From positions 1-32,847 of the IMG/VR virus record IMGVR_UViG_3300036846_001359: a stretch of DNA of 32,847 nt. One strand, written 5' to 3'. The translations under genes and the position numbers were made by a program. The DNA is from a virus. How positions within the stretch are numbered: position 1 is the stretch's first letter; each line of letters opens with the position of its first letter. The notes under the pieces were generated by a model, which saw only the letters and a list, made by a program, of their open reading frames with translations, was not told the origin of the DNA and made no database searches. Shown here piece after piece: positions 2,015-10,985 of the stretch.

Positions 2015-2209
2015 CTACCGCGTTCGCGTCACCTCTAGAAACCCTTGGAAGAACCGCATGAGGAACCGCATGTCCTTGTAATAGTAGCGGGTGCTCTCCA
2101 CAGCGATCTGGGCACTCTCAAACAACTGTGGATCATACACTGTCCTCGTCTCTCCGACCTCCATCTTGCTGAAACCCCAGGGGCGTCTCCTCTTCTTCCC
2201 CTCCGTCAT
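2015..2209 (-). CDS. Small basic protein with MEVGET motif, paralogue of the adjacent upstream gene
   Basis: ATG 2209 overlaps the upstream stop as ATGA. The product (64 aa) has a very basic N-terminus (KKRRR), then PWGFSKMEVGETRTVYD and a helical segment (FESAQIAVESTRYYY). The gene just upstream encodes the same pattern (PF-x-x-MEVGET, aromatic/acidic turn, F-x-SA-x-x-A helix), so the pair is a tandem duplication. Small phage proteins with a W/PF-x-x-M-x-VGD/E-S/T signature are widespread and of unknown function; a DNA-binding or regulatory role is a guess from the basic charge. Confidence 0.7.
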   Translation of the reverse strand: MTEGKKRRRPWGFSKMEVGETRTVYDPQLFESAQIAVESTRYYYKDMRFLMRFFQGFLEVTRTR

Positions 2210-2454
2210 GCGACACGCTGAACCCGCAAGCCAGCCTCGCGTCGACCCAACGTGAACCGCTTGTTGCTCTTGCGGTGGAGGTTGGATGCTGCGTTGTACG
2301 CAGATTGGAAGCGCTTGGTGTCCTCCACATAAAGCGTCTCCCCCACCTCCATCTGCTCGAAGGGCCAGACCGGACGAGGACCTTTCCTCACCGGCAGTAT
2401 GATCTCTACCGGCTCCATGCCGAGGGTGAAGCCGTATAGGGTGCGAGTGTCCAT
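2206..2454 (-). CDS. Small protein with MEVGET motif, tandem paralogue
   Basis: ATG 2454 is preceded by AAGGAG. The 82-residue product begins with a strand-rich part (MDTRTLYGFTLGMEPVEII), then RPVWPFEQMEVGETLYVED, then a helix (KRFQSAYNAASNLHRK) and a basic end. It shares its core with the next gene downstream. It is the first gene of the short leftward unit and its leader contains the large inverted repeat, so any promoter for this unit must lie in or near that palindrome. Confidence 0.72.
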   Translation of the reverse strand: MDTRTLYGFTLGMEPVEIILPVRKGPRPVWPFEQMEVGETLYVEDTKRFQSAYNAASNLHRKSNKRFTLGRREAGLRVQRVA

Positions 2455-2491
2455 TCCGCTTGCTCCTTGAAGATCCTATTTACCCGCCCAG

Positions 2492-2724
2492 AGTTTCTAC
2501 CGATCCGCATATTCGAGTATTTTGAGGGTCTAATTACTTTAAAGCTAAGCGTGTAGATAGGTGTTAAAGGTTCACTGTATGTGTATGTGAATTACTATAT
2601 AATAACAATTCACATACACATACATTACTTCACAATCTTTCGAGCATGTCAAGCGCGCTATGCGCACCTAGCTTTAAAGTAATTAGACCCTCAAAATACC
2701 CGAATACGCGGAACCGTAGAAACT
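2492..2724. repeat. Nested inverted repeats in an AT-rich divergent intergenic region (candidate origin or operator)
   Basis: The arms 2492-2547 and 2669-2724 are 56 bases each and complementary at 52 positions without gaps; the inner 31 bases (2517-2547 against 2669-2699) match perfectly. Between them lies a second, perfect 18-bp inverted repeat (2576-2593 and 2607-2624, core GTATGTGTATGTGAATT) around a 13-base AT-only-like loop. The block is strikingly AT-rich in a GC-rich genome and separates leftward genes (from 2454) from rightward genes (from 2794). This could be a replication origin, a two-sided operator or a paired regulatory site; the structure is seen, the role is inferred. Confidence 0.85.
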
Positions 2725-2735
2725 ATGACGGGGGT

Positions 2736-2764
2736 TTGACAATCTTCAAACCCTCATTTAAAAT
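2736..2764 (+). promoter_or_regulatory. Sigma70-like promoter for the 2794 gene
   Basis: TTGACA at 2736-2741, a 17-base spacer, and TAAAAT at 2759-2764, about 30 bases before ATG 2794 and just outside the right arm of the large inverted repeat. This is close to the host housekeeping consensus, so the gene is probably read by host polymerase early in infection. Confidence 0.7.
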
Positions 2765-2793: not shown

Positions 2794-3162
2794 ATGGCTA
2801 ACAAGCGGCACTGGAGCGACTTCCCTATCTCCCTTATAGAGACAGTCCAGAAGTTCGAGGAGGCACCCAACGACCGACTAGCCCTCAACGGTCTATCCCG
2901 ATCGGATGCCTATGGTATGAGGAACGAGTTCCACCGCTTCCGCCGCGCCGTGATCGACGCTGTCCACTACGGCCGCGAGAACGAGCAGGACCTCGCCCTC
3001 AACGAACTCTACAGCGCCCTCCGAGACATGAGCCTGTCTCTCCGTCCCCTTGGTACCTCTAACCTCTACCAGTTGGTGTATACCAAGCATGTGGCCTCCA
3101 GGTACCTGGACAAGTGGGAGGCCTTCGAGCCACTTGTTGACACGGAGGAGCAACAAGTTTGA
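2794..3162 (+). CDS. Hypothetical protein, 122 aa, first gene right of the palindrome
   Basis: ATG 2794 has AAAAGGACAC upstream and a good promoter at 2736-2764. The product is charged and helical (WSDFPISLIETVQKFEEAPN, RNEFHRFRRAVIDAVHYGRE, ALNELYSALRDMSLSLRPLG) with no cysteines, membrane segments or catalytic motif. Its position beside the palindrome and behind its own host-like promoter, followed by a terminator-like hairpin, suggests a monocistronic early gene, perhaps a regulator. No helix-turn-helix could be assigned with confidence. Confidence 0.78.
   Translation: MANKRHWSDFPISLIETVQKFEEAPNDRLALNGLSRSDAYGMRNEFHRFRRAVIDAVHYGRENEQDLALNELYSALRDMSLSLRPLGTSNLYQLVYTKHVASRYLDKWEAFEPLVDTEEQQV
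3132..3158 (+). terminator. Weak hairpin at the 3' end of the 2794 gene
   Basis: ACTTGTTG (3132-3139) pairs perfectly with CAACAAGT (3151-3158) around an 11-base loop and is followed by only TT. It overlaps the gene's last codons. A second 7-bp hairpin (CCAACAT 3174-3180, ATGTTGG 3197-3203, then GTTTT) follows. These may be minor terminators or RNA-stability structures. Confidence 0.3.
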
Positions 3163-3261
3163 CTTGAAATTATCCAACATATTCACTACAATCTCGATGT
3201 TGGGTTTTCGCCTTTCTTCCATGTAGAGCGCGGCGATGACCTGGCTACCTGTGTAGACTTA

Positions 3262-3294
3262 GGGGGGCCGCCCTCGTGGCGGTCCCTCCCTTTT
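3262..3294 (+). terminator. Rho-independent terminator-like hairpin
   Basis: An 11-bp stem (3262-3272 with 3278-3288, including two G-U pairs), a five-base loop CTCGT, and TTTT at 3291-3294. It lies between the genes ending at 3162 and starting at 3323, so it would end or attenuate the first transcript. Confidence 0.6.
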
Positions 3295-3322
3295 CCAACC
3301 AAGCAAGAGGAGCATCCCCTAG

Positions 3323-3886
3323 ATGACCGACGCGCAAGTAGTAGACCTCCCGACCGCTCCGGCCCCCTCCGGTAAGCGCAAGATCGCCAATGCCACCATC
3401 AATGGCTCCCATGTCGAGATACAGTTCTCCGATCTCTACGGGAACGCCAAGCTCACCATCGACACCAGCAAGACCGGCGACAACACGCGCGCGCTCCTGG
3501 CCGCACAGGGGGCTGCCTCCGTCATCCAGACGGCCTACTCGGCAGCCGAGGACCCCGTGGCCGCCGCTACCTCCGCCATTGACCGGATGATGTCGGGTGA
3601 CTGGCGGCCGGGTCCGCCGCGTGGAGAGCCTCCCATGGACCCGTTGGTCCAGGCCATCGCCGAGCACCTCGCCCACGAGACAAAGAAACCCTACTCCCCC
3701 GAGAAGGTGCTGGAGGAGTTCATCCCCGCCTATCAAGCCCGCCACCAGCTCACCAACATCTCCGTGGCCCGCCGCCGGCTGCGTGCGCACCCCGACATCG
3801 CCGCGCGCGTCGCCCACATCGAGGCCGCCCGTGCCAAGGCCGCCTCCGACCGGGTCAAGGGCACCACCGCCGAGAGCCTACTGTAG
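3323..3886 (+). CDS. Hypothetical early protein, 187 aa
   Basis: ATG 3323 follows AAGAGGAG at about 10 bases. The N-terminal third is beta-rich (KIANATINGSHVEIQFSDLY, NAKLTIDTSKTGDN); the middle is a flexible proline/glycine linker around residues 94-104; the C-terminal 80 residues are helical and basic (SPEKVLEEFIPAYQARHQ, ISVARRRLRAHPDIAARVAH). A beta domain joined to a basic helical one could bind nucleic acid, but no family is recognised. It sits between two terminator-like hairpins and is probably its own transcription unit or a read-through gene. Confidence 0.75.
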   Translation: MTDAQVVDLPTAPAPSGKRKIANATINGSHVEIQFSDLYGNAKLTIDTSKTGDNTRALLAAQGAASVIQTAYSAAEDPVAAATSAIDRMMSGDWRPGPPRGEPPMDPLVQAIAEHLAHETKKPYSPEKVLEEFIPAYQARHQLTNISVARRRLRAHPDIAARVAHIEAARAKAASDRVKGTTAESLL

Positions 3887-7436: not shown

Positions 7437-8048
7437 GTGCCCCAAATAATAGCTTTCATCGGTCCCCGTGGCTGCGGCAAGTCCACCGCCGCCATGATCC
7501 TCACCCACCAGTGCGGCTTCCTCCCCCTGCCCTTCGCGGCCCCGGTCAAGGAGATGGTTGCCGCCCTCCTGCACTATCAGGGTGTGCCCCCCTACAGCAT
7601 CCAGGCCATGCTCCTCGGCAGCCGCAAGGACGCCCCTTCAGTCTACCTCGCCGGCCAATCGCCGCGCCACGTCATGCAGACCCTCGGCACCGAGTGGCGT
7701 GACCTGATCGACCGCACCCTCTGGTCCGGTATCTGGCAGTCCCGCCTCAAGCTTCTCGGCTCCCGCAATGTCGTCGTCGACGACATGCGCTTCCACCATG
7801 AAGCAGCTGTCGTCAGAGCCGCAGGCGGCAAGATATTCACCATCAGCCGGCCCGGCCACCACACCTGTGACAAGCACATCTCTGAACAAGAGTGGAAGGA
7901 GATCGAACCCGATGGCGTCCTGGTCAACGACGAGGGCCAGCAGGACGCGATGTTCGACCAACTCAGCGCCCTCGGCATCGTCCCCCTCAACACCATCCCG
8001 CACGACGTTCCCCTCCCCCTCGACATCCCCATGGGAAAGCGCCACTAG
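7437..8048 (+). CDS. Deoxynucleoside monophosphate kinase
   Basis: GTG 7437 follows GAGGAG. The 203-residue product starts with a P-loop, IAFIGPRGCGKSTAAM (Walker A at residues 9-17), and continues with an FAAPVKEMVAALL segment typical of phage dNMP kinases, a YLAGQSPRHVMQTLGTEW lid/substrate region (the M-Q-x-x-GTEWRR-like motif is characteristic of the T4 gene 1 type) and VVVDDMRFHHEA. The C-terminal part has ISRPGHH and VNDEG. The enzyme phosphorylates dNMPs to dNDPs to supply phage DNA synthesis. It stands directly before the DNA polymerase gene, consistent with that role. Confidence 0.88.
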   Translation: MPQIIAFIGPRGCGKSTAAMILTHQCGFLPLPFAAPVKEMVAALLHYQGVPPYSIQAMLLGSRKDAPSVYLAGQSPRHVMQTLGTEWRDLIDRTLWSGIWQSRLKLLGSRNVVVDDMRFHHEAAVVRAAGGKIFTISRPGHHTCDKHISEQEWKEIEPDGVLVNDEGQQDAMFDQLSALGIVPLNTIPHDVPLPLDIPMGKRH

Positions 8049-8049
8049 C

Positions 8050-9822
8050 ATGCGCCTGATCCAAGAAGGACCCCGCACTCCAGGGGGAATACTTCTATGC
8101 GGCGAAGCGCCTGGTGCTGAGGAGGATCGCTCCGGGCGGCCCTTCTCCGGCACCAGCGGGTGGGAGCTGGACAAAGAACTGGCTGCCTCTGGCTTGCTCC
8201 GCTCTCAACTCTTCATCACCAACGTCTGTCACGAGCGGCCGCCAGGCAACGAGATCGAGAAGTTCTTCGCCACCAAGACCGAGGCCAAGAATGCCCCCAA
8301 GCTCGACACCCTAAGCCTTGCCAATGCAGCCTCTCGCCTAGCTGCTGACATCACCGTGATCGCGGGCCGGTGTGCCCGCCGCCCGGTGATCGAAGGCCTC
8401 GTCCAGCTGCAAAAGGACATCGACGCCCTCCGGCCCCGCCTGATCATCGCCATGGGCAACACCGCCCTCTGGGCTTTGACCGGCCACACCGGCATCCGTT
8501 CTTGGCGTGGTAGCATCCTGGAAGCGTCCGGCGGCCCAGTGGACGGAAAGGGGATCAAACTTATCCCCACTGTTCACACCGCCTCGGTCCTCCGTGAATA
8601 CCAGTGGAAGGGGATCGTCATCCATGACCTCAAGCGCGCCCTCCGCGAGTCCCGCTACCCCGAAGTGCGACGGCCCACCTGGAGCTTCACGGTTCCGGGT
8701 TCACTCCGCGAGCTACGGGACTGGCTGGGAGACAACTTCGCTACGCTCCCCGAAGACGCCTACGTCACCGCCGACGTGGAGAACGACTACTCCACCGACC
8801 GCGTCCATGACGCTCGCATTTATTGCCTTGGCCTTGCTGTTGATCCTCACACTGCTTGCTGTGTGCCTTTTGCTCATCGCGCCGGCGACAACCCCCATTG
8901 GTGGGCCTCTCCAGAGGAGGAGCGGGACGCCGTGCTCCTCCTCCGCGATTACTTGCGACGCCGGCCCGTCCTCTTCCACAACGGCCTCCACGACTGTCAG
9001 GTCATAGCCCACAACTGGGGTTGGATGCCCCGCTTCACCCACGACAGCATGGTCGCCCAGCACACCCTTTTCCCGGCCCAGCTCGGCGGCAAGATCGACC
9101 CCATCACCGGCCGCACCAGCAAGAGCGGCAGCAGCTACAGTCTTCTGTTTTGCTCCTCGATCTACTGTGACTACCACCGTTACTGGAAGGACGACGGCAA
9201 AGGCTGGGACCCGGGCATTCACGACGAACTCCAATACTGGCACTACAACTGCGAGGACCTGGTGCGAACACACGAGGTGTTTGCCGCGCAGCGGCAAATG
9301 CTTCACAGCAACAAGCTGTGGGAGCAGTACGAGTTCCTGATGAGCCTCTTCCCCGCTGTCTTCGAGATGATGTTCTCCGGCCTCGCCTTCGACGACACCG
9401 CTCGCCGCACCTACCGGGCCGACGTTGAGCGGCAGATCAAGGAGGCCCAGGCTTGGATCAACGAGGCCGTCGGCCACCCGCTCAACGTCGAGTCCTCCCC
9501 CCAAATGCAGCGCCTCTTCTACGAGGACCTCCGGCTCAAGCCCATTCTCCACCGCAAGACCCGCCAGCCGACCGTCAACGACCACGCCCTGGAACGCTTC
9601 AAGATCGTCCGCCCCATCCTGCGGCCCCTGGTCGAGCGCATCCAGGCGGTGCGCTCCCTCGCCGTCTACAAGGAGAACTTCCTCGACATGCGCCTTTCCC
9701 GCGATGGCCGGCTACGCCCTGCGATCAACGTCGCCGGCCCCGAAACCTACCGCTTCTCGATGAACCACACCGCCCTCGGGGAGGCCGGCAATCTCCAGAA
9801 CCTGCCACGAATGGAGGACTGA
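8050..9822 (+). CDS. DNA polymerase A, N-terminal half: UDG-like domain, 3'-5' exonuclease, polymerase thumb
   Basis: ATG 8050 starts one base after the kinase stop; earlier starts in the frame lie inside the kinase gene. The 590-residue product has a family-4-like uracil-DNA-glycosylase domain (GEAPGAEEDRSGRPFSG near residue 18; NVCHERPPGNE; VHTASVLR near 176), then an intact DEDDy exonuclease (VTADVEND; LFHNGLHD; YNCEDLV), then the PolA thumb and start of the palm, ending at NLQNLPRMED. In bacterial Pol I this NLQNIP segment directly precedes motif A, so the polymerase active site is missing here and is encoded in the gene at 10230. The two products probably assemble. The cysteine pair that begins family-4 glycosylases is absent, so an Fe-S cluster is doubtful. 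Confidence 0.9.
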   Translation: MRLIQEGPRTPGGILLCGEAPGAEEDRSGRPFSGTSGWELDKELAASGLLRSQLFITNVCHERPPGNEIEKFFATKTEAKNAPKLDTLSLANAASRLAADITVIAGRCARRPVIEGLVQLQKDIDALRPRLIIAMGNTALWALTGHTGIRSWRGSILEASGGPVDGKGIKLIPTVHTASVLREYQWKGIVIHDLKRALRESRYPEVRRPTWSFTVPGSLRELRDWLGDNFATLPEDAYVTADVENDYSTDRVHDARIYCLGLAVDPHTACCVPFAHRAGDNPHWWASPEEERDAVLLLRDYLRRRPVLFHNGLHDCQVIAHNWGWMPRFTHDSMVAQHTLFPAQLGGKIDPITGRTSKSGSSYSLLFCSSIYCDYHRYWKDDGKGWDPGIHDELQYWHYNCEDLVRTHEVFAAQRQMLHSNKLWEQYEFLMSLFPAVFEMMFSGLAFDDTARRTYRADVERQIKEAQAWINEAVGHPLNVESSPQMQRLFYEDLRLKPILHRKTRQPTVNDHALERFKIVRPILRPLVERIQAVRSLAVYKENFLDMRLSRDGRLRPAINVAGPETYRFSMNHTALGEAGNLQNLPRMED

Positions 9823-9823
9823 C

Positions 9824-10246
9824 ATGCCTGACCCATCCCCCCGAAACGTGACCCTGAGGGCTGCACCGCCACTTTGCACCGACTGCCGCTGGTGCCTCAT
9901 CGAAGAGGCCAGCTACGAGGAGCCGCAATGCACCTCGCCCAAGCAGCCGATGTCCGTGGTCGACGGCAAGCCCCGCTGGCCCGAGTGCTACCTCCAGCGC
10001 GGCGAGGACGACGAGCGTGCCACCTACCACCACGACCTCTGCCGCACCGACGGCCGCTACTTTGAGCCGCGCGAAGGCGAACCCGCAAAGACCCACGACG
10101 AGCAGATACGGGACGCCACCATCGAAGAGTGCCAGGCAACGATCCTTGGGGGCAGCTTCTTGCACGACGCTGCACCGGCCAAGCAGTTCGCCAAGGAAGT
10201 CGTGGAGGCTCTCGACAGGATCAAGTCCGATGCCCTTCGAACCTGA
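9824..10246 (+). CDS. Small cysteine-rich (putative zinc-binding) protein between the polymerase halves
   Basis: ATG 9824 lies one base after the polymerase N-half stop, and its 3' end overlaps the start of the C-half by 17 bases. The 140-residue product has CTDCRWC near residue 18, further cysteines in PQCTSP, PECYLQ and HDLCRTDGRYFEP, and a helical C-terminus. This CxxC...C...C...C-x-x-x-G-x-YFEP arrangement resembles a widespread class of small phage proteins of unknown role, presumably zinc-binding. It has no HNH, GIY-YIG or LAGLIDADG motif, so it is not an obvious homing endonuclease although it sits exactly at the split. Confidence 0.75.
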   Translation: MPDPSPRNVTLRAAPPLCTDCRWCLIEEASYEEPQCTSPKQPMSVVDGKPRWPECYLQRGEDDERATYHHDLCRTDGRYFEPREGEPAKTHDEQIRDATIEECQATILGGSFLHDAAPAKQFAKEVVEALDRIKSDALRT

Positions 10247-10985
10247 CCTCCCCCCGATCCGCTCGCTCATCAAACCGGACCCCGGATGGGTATTAGTAGA
10301 CGCAGATTTTGATCGCGCGGACGCCCAGATCGTCGCGTGGAGCGCCAACGAGCCGGCCCTCAAGGTCATCTTCCAGGAGGGCCACGATGTTCACACCGAG
10401 AACGCCGCCCTCGTCTCCGGCTGGGCCAAGAAGCCTGTCTCCCGCCAAGCCCTCAAAGCTGGCCTCCACCTCACCAACTACGGCGGCAAGGCCCGCACCC
10501 TCGCCTCTACCCTGGGCACCACCATCGCCATCGCCGAAGCCTTCCAGCACTACTGGTTTGGCAAGTATCCCGGCATCCGGCGGTGGCACGAGAGCACCCT
10601 CACCGTCCTCCGGCTCCAGCACTACATCCGCAATGTCTGGGGCTTCCGCCGCTTCTACTTCGAGCGGCTCGACGGCCACAACGCCGACCTCCTCCTCCCC
10701 CAGGCCCTCGCTTGGCTCGGCCAATCAGGCGTCGCCATCGCCATCAACCACGCCATGCTCCAGGTCAGGGCCAAGTTCCCCCGCACTGACGTGCGGCTCA
10801 AGCTTCAAGTGCACGACAGCCTCCTCCTAGAGGTCCGCGCCGACCTCTGCCCCGGCATCTTCCCCGAGATCATCCAGGCGATGCAGGTCCGCATCCCCTT
10901 TGCCGACCCGCTCTACATCCCTGTCAGCCTCAAGTTCAGCAAGAGCAGCTGGGGCGAGGTCCACAAATGGAGCCAAGCAGCATGA
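10230..10985 (+). CDS. DNA polymerase A, C-terminal half (palm and fingers with motifs A, B and C)
   Basis: ATG 10230 overlaps the preceding gene by 17 bases. The 251-residue product begins just before PolA motif A (LVDADFDRADAQIVAW), continues with motif B on the O-helix (RQALKAGLHLTNYGG) and motif C (LQVHDSLLLEV), so all catalytic residues of the polymerase are here: the two Asp residues and the Arg/Lys pair. Compared with E. coli Pol I, the position of Glu710 is Asp and that of Phe762 is His, a pattern I associate with a clade of phage polymerases. It lacks thumb and exonuclease, which are in the gene at 8050, and it must pair with that product to be a normal enzyme. Confidence 0.92.
   Translation: MPFEPDLPPIRSLIKPDPGWVLVDADFDRADAQIVAWSANEPALKVIFQEGHDVHTENAALVSGWAKKPVSRQALKAGLHLTNYGGKARTLASTLGTTIAIAEAFQHYWFGKYPGIRRWHESTLTVLRLQHYIRNVWGFRRFYFERLDGHNADLLLPQALAWLGQSGVAIAINHAMLQVRAKFPRTDVRLKLQVHDSLLLEVRADLCPGIFPEIIQAMQVRIPFADPLYIPVSLKFSKSSWGEVHKWSQAA

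Follow-up and report, generated by a model that had tools for sequence, protein, structure and literature searches.

The 32,847-nucleotide stretch of viral DNA analysed here (the window) contains a long nested quasi-palindrome that we tentatively read as a double-stranded DNA element acting in cis, and most likely as the origin of replication in a clade of phages that has been little described. Across the phage family that carries it, the sequence of the element is not conserved, while its anatomy is. The origin reading, drawn from sequence comparison, is favoured by compensating arm changes in four sister genomes, by the same placement in distant relatives, by a conserved polarity and the lack of an RNA-strand preference, and by the presence of a single copy in a phage with replication proteins of its own.

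The element consists of two inverted repeats, one inside the other (Table 1). The outer arms pair without gaps at 52 of 56 positions, the inner 31 perfectly, and the four mismatches (2501/2715, 2503/2713, 2509/2707 and 2516/2700) all fall within the outer 25 bases; the inner repeat is a perfect 18-bp match around a 13-nt AT loop. The pairing counts agree with an earlier note made on this DNA. That note had also described an AT-rich block in a GC-rich genome at a divergence of genes, and we found 39% GC in 2467-2749 versus about 62-65% in the flanks and genome, with the palindrome lying between a leftward ORF (2206-2454) and a rightward one (2794-3162). Its description of the repeats as concentric holds for the nesting but not exactly for the centres, which are offset by 8 bp (2600 for the inner and 2608 for the outer repeat), leaving spacers of 28 and 44 nt. 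The self-complementarity score of the element is 178, compared with a maximum of 44 among 1000 Markov resamplings. No other palindrome of the whole record comes near it in strength, it occurs there once, and no second copy of the arm sequence was found elsewhere in the record.

Table 1. Coordinates of the palindrome, the predicted promoters and the adjoining genes in the window
Feature	Positions	Strand	Remarks
Whole quasi-palindrome	2467-2749	.	From self-complementarity scan; outward extension of the symmetry is imperfect
Left outer arm	2492-2547	.	Pairs with 2669-2724 at 52 of 56 positions; co-varies in sisters
Right outer arm	2669-2724	.	Pairs with 2492-2547; co-varies in sisters
Left inner arm	2576-2593	.	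Perfect 18 bp; letters partly conserved in sisters
Right inner arm	2607-2624	.	Perfect 18-bp match to 2576-2593
AT-rich core/loop, ACTATATAATAAC	2594-2606	.	13 nt, from sequence; relatives also have AT cores
Predicted leftward promoter, TTGACA-17-AGTAAT	2624-2652	-	Motif match only; inside palindrome
Predicted rightward promoter, TTGACA-17-TAAAAT	2736-2764	+	Motif match only; at right edge, likewise in most relatives
Small leftward gene	2206-2454	-	Starts at left edge of element; same arrangement in sisters
R gene, first to the right of the element	2794-3162	+	Family common to relatives
gp187	3323-3886	+	Neighbour family used to find relatives; left of element in ~40-kb phages

Three sister genomes from the same metagenome (G001, G002 and G003) likewise have a nested palindrome where these two genes diverge, and its arms differ in their letters. 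Their flanking genes are mostly about 80-90% identical in DNA. Each outer arm matches its own partner at 77-89%, versus at most 72% for the arm of any other genome. In an alignment of these three genomes and the window, the four sequences that make up the whole co-variation sample, 87.7% of cells pair and 38 of the 74 pairs have changed on both sides; shuffling gave 17.6 on average, and sliding the partner gave no more than 10. The compensating changes that the earlier note proposed to look for in related phages are therefore abundant, and its argument that absence from close relatives would point to a random or mobile repeat falls away. So does its other counter-argument, presence of the sequence at many unrelated sites, given the single copy in the record. 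A mobile, MITE-like repeat was rejected for that reason and because the element keeps its place in relatives and its arm letters differ between sisters; a dispersed operator was rejected for want of a second copy of the arms.

We located more distant relatives through the DNA polymerase (80 IMG/VR loci) and through the 187-aa neighbour gp187 (further loci). Besides the three sisters, some 30 distant phages carry a nested palindrome of 125-320 b at the corresponding place, nearly all of them with an AT-rich core. Examples are G043 and G044 (about 56% and 42% polymerase identity), G039, G006, G012, G018, G027, G029, G030 and G051, with a weaker one in G014; among named phages, MW202489 has the palindrome and Microcystis phage Mel-JY34 a weak candidate form at 44129-44291. 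The polymerases of phages that share the place, AT core, polarity and promoter edge are only about 30-45% identical. A DNA comparison gave no match to named phages, and no relatives were found in bacterial genomes. A scan of 1.7 Mb gave few comparable scores elsewhere, except several in Desulfofustis phage LS06-2018-MD01 (OP947158; L019 in our set), whose strong long palindromes at 7549, 29652, 31106, 31643, 38987 and 40554 are scattered over several sites, unlike the single palindrome of the window phage's family.

We measured the association with gp187 by scoring the region from +430 to +1700 relative to gp187 at 60 loci against 172 control windows. A palindrome score of at least 60 was reached at 27 of the 60 loci and in 3 of the 172 controls (Mann-Whitney p=9e-14, a value that is too small because the loci are phylogenetically non-independent), and a score of at least 75 at 17 loci and in none of the controls. 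Five of the 60 loci were already familiar when the test was made, and leaving them out gives 22/55 and 13/55, respectively. Over half of the gp187 loci, including a group of similar contigs (L186-L195), have no palindrome above threshold, which weakens the origin reading.

The order of features in the ~40-kb members, read in the orientation of the early genes, is gp187 region, noncoding gap, palindrome, promoter and R gene. The element stands at the head of the early region, and the predicted sigma-70-type promoter that usually marks its right edge leads into R and on to the replication genes, which forms part of the case for an origin. Within the element there is a clear polarity. Among 33 elements, the left half favours a C-run over a G-run by 25:4 (p=1e-4), and on the early-gene strand a T-run of six or more, usually near the centre, outranks an A-run by 22:2 (p=4e-5); the most enriched 6-mers are CCCTCT, CCCCTC and CCCTTC. 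The window group (the window and its three sisters) itself has no long T-run. We considered an invertible promoter switch and do not favour it, the polarity of the T-run being nearly constant. Direct repeats spaced about 21-22 bp apart are clear in 3 of 17 elements (MW202489, G027 and G030); they add a little to the origin reading, and the restriction of such iteron-like repeats to three members takes something from it.

The phages encode replication proteins of their own, namely an exonuclease, a Sak4-like protein, a Dda-like helicase, a family-A polymerase of the UDG-PolA type and a DUF3987 protein (in 10 of 13 records), with no DnaB among them. In the window the polymerase, whose N-terminus carries a uracil-DNA-glycosylase-like domain, seems to be divided between two ORFs within 7768-10985 (+), either as a true split or through a frameshift or insertion, the first (7768-9822) holding the UDG and the first part of PolA and the second (10017-10985) the remaining PolA. 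The G027 contig has DUF3987 near both ends (2852-3763 and 42375-42983), which suggests an assembly that extends beyond one complete genome, circular or terminally redundant.

If the element is an origin, it would serve as the site where an initiator loads and DNA unwinds. A phage initiator would bind the two mirror-image arms, and the AT core might then melt or extrude as a cruciform, aided by the negative supercoils that form behind the early promoter, so that the phage's own helicase and family-A polymerase could load there. The AT-rich core between inverted arms that such a site calls for is present. The earlier note had judged two inverted repeats of this size to be more than an ordinary operator needs and had named a replication origin or a cruciform; these still appear the best readings. 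Two further results count against an origin. GC skew shows no consistent switch at the element between genomes (left versus right, p=0.2), and the candidates for the initiator, R and gp187, are candidates by position only, R having no structural match: its model (mean pLDDT 77) gave no PDB match at E<=0.001. The fold model of gp187 is poor.

It is possible, though we would not call it probable, that these phages represent an undescribed class of phage origin, an AT-cored nested palindrome of 125-320 b coupled to the early promoter and adjoining R and gp187, in which self-complementarity and polarity rather than sequence are conserved across a wide clade of uncultured phages and R or gp187 may be the initiator. 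In the literature, as far as our incomplete coverage of it extends, we found no description of a phage family that keeps only shape, place and polarity.

The strongest rival to an origin, which we rate as rather unlikely, is a control region upstream of the early promoter, with inverted sites arrayed along its arms, where a protein of the phage or the host would loop, repress or activate the promoter; in the window group it would act on the two divergent promoters. By motif matches only, about 15 of 17 elements, and most of 22 more that partly overlap the 17, have their best forward sigma-70-like site at the right edge or just beyond it. An operator-like TTGA-N6-TCAA overlaps the -35 of the rightward promoter at 2736-2749, and the window also has a predicted leftward promoter inside the palindrome, which recurs in G002 and G003 and serves small leftward genes absent from many relatives. 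However, self-complementarity over 125-320 b, spacers included, exceeds what protein sites need; the arms are found nowhere else in the record, and their sequences differ between sisters. Regulation to both sides of a divergence, another suggestion of the earlier note, does not generalize, as many members have tandem early neighbours and only the right-hand promoter is conserved. The first gene beyond the element belonged, where tested, to one divergent family, R; the window group is placed in that family by a multiple alignment in which few columns are conserved. On the left, two small genes of the window run leftward (82 and 64 aa; 2015-2454, minus strand); they have a common MEVGET... motif and look like tandem copies of one small domain, and locus L077 has similar 'VGE' proteins left of its element.

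The palindrome might instead act when single-stranded, as a hairpin that starts a primer in the manner of a plasmid single-strand origin or as a single-strand promoter like Frpo of the F plasmid, which folds into a stem-loop that rebuilds the -10 and -35 boxes (PMC9849209). In its favour, the phage element is a long, imperfect, noncoding palindrome of fixed polarity ahead of early genes. The best predicted promoters lie outside the palindrome, and single-stranded phage DNA at entry is unsupported, so that we regard such a hairpin as distinctly unlikely.

Co-variation of the arms is concerted change and by itself no proof of selection, because template switching by polymerases also homogenises the arms of quasi-palindromes and can invert their spacers (PMC8604942). 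This weakens the origin reading, and it would allow an old quasi-palindrome to be kept tidy with no selected pairing function; two A-run cases could indeed be inverted spacers. We nevertheless find this quite improbable, since place, AT core, polarity and promoter edge recur at about 30-45% polymerase identity, and do so in compact genomes.

A structured RNA, whether noncoding or the leftward gene's 5' leader, has a still slimmer chance. Folding favours the minus strand in each of the four genomes of the window group, but the advantage is weak when G.U pairs are counted by strand (23:18 in the four full palindromes) and is gone over 34 elements (188:193). Balanced counts of this kind indicate that the constraint, if any, is on DNA. 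Moreover, an Rfam search matched no family and returned only sub-threshold microRNA hairpins, which we take as chance, and a transcript from the predicted leftward promoter would begin within the palindrome and thus hold one outer arm only. A protelomerase telomere site was rejected, as PF16684 was found in none of 11 records (several of them fragments) and the centre, with its ACTATATAATAAC loop, is not perfectly palindromic.

Herpesviruses and SV40 have palindromic origins with an AT core. Herpesvirus oriL and oriS and the SV40 core origin resemble the phage element in general layout, being palindromic, with an AT-rich strand-asymmetric core, and placed beside early genes. The phage element differs in having no known homology to them, in its longer arms whose sequence changes freely, and in lying between tandem genes in many relatives. 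Iteron-type origins of plasmids and phages likewise have an AT-rich core, and three phage members have direct repeats, whereas most have no clear iterons. N15-type protelomerase sites also nest inverted repeats around a short central palindrome, unlike the phage core, which is not a perfect one, and the protelomerase itself was not found (0/11 records). Frpo is a long noncoding stem-loop ahead of early-expressed genes as well (PMC9849209), from which the phage element departs in having its best predicted promoter outside the palindrome.

For most environmental phages it is not known where replication begins, and origins that change fast escape sequence search. Here shape, place and polarity mark a site despite differing letters, which could make origins or control regions predictable in phages not yet grown. 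R and gp187, two unknown families beside the site, are direct candidates for an initiator or regulator, and the element would offer a clear example of paired arms that evolve jointly over long distances in DNA and not in RNA.

Beyond the R gene, a noncoding block (3163-3300, plus strand) with a terminator-like hairpin is strongly conserved in all four genomes of the window group. It includes a promoter-like TTGAAA-17-TACAAT (3164-3192), a 29-base string whose exact match in viral_contigs occurs only in the sister G001, and the block is possibly a small RNA.
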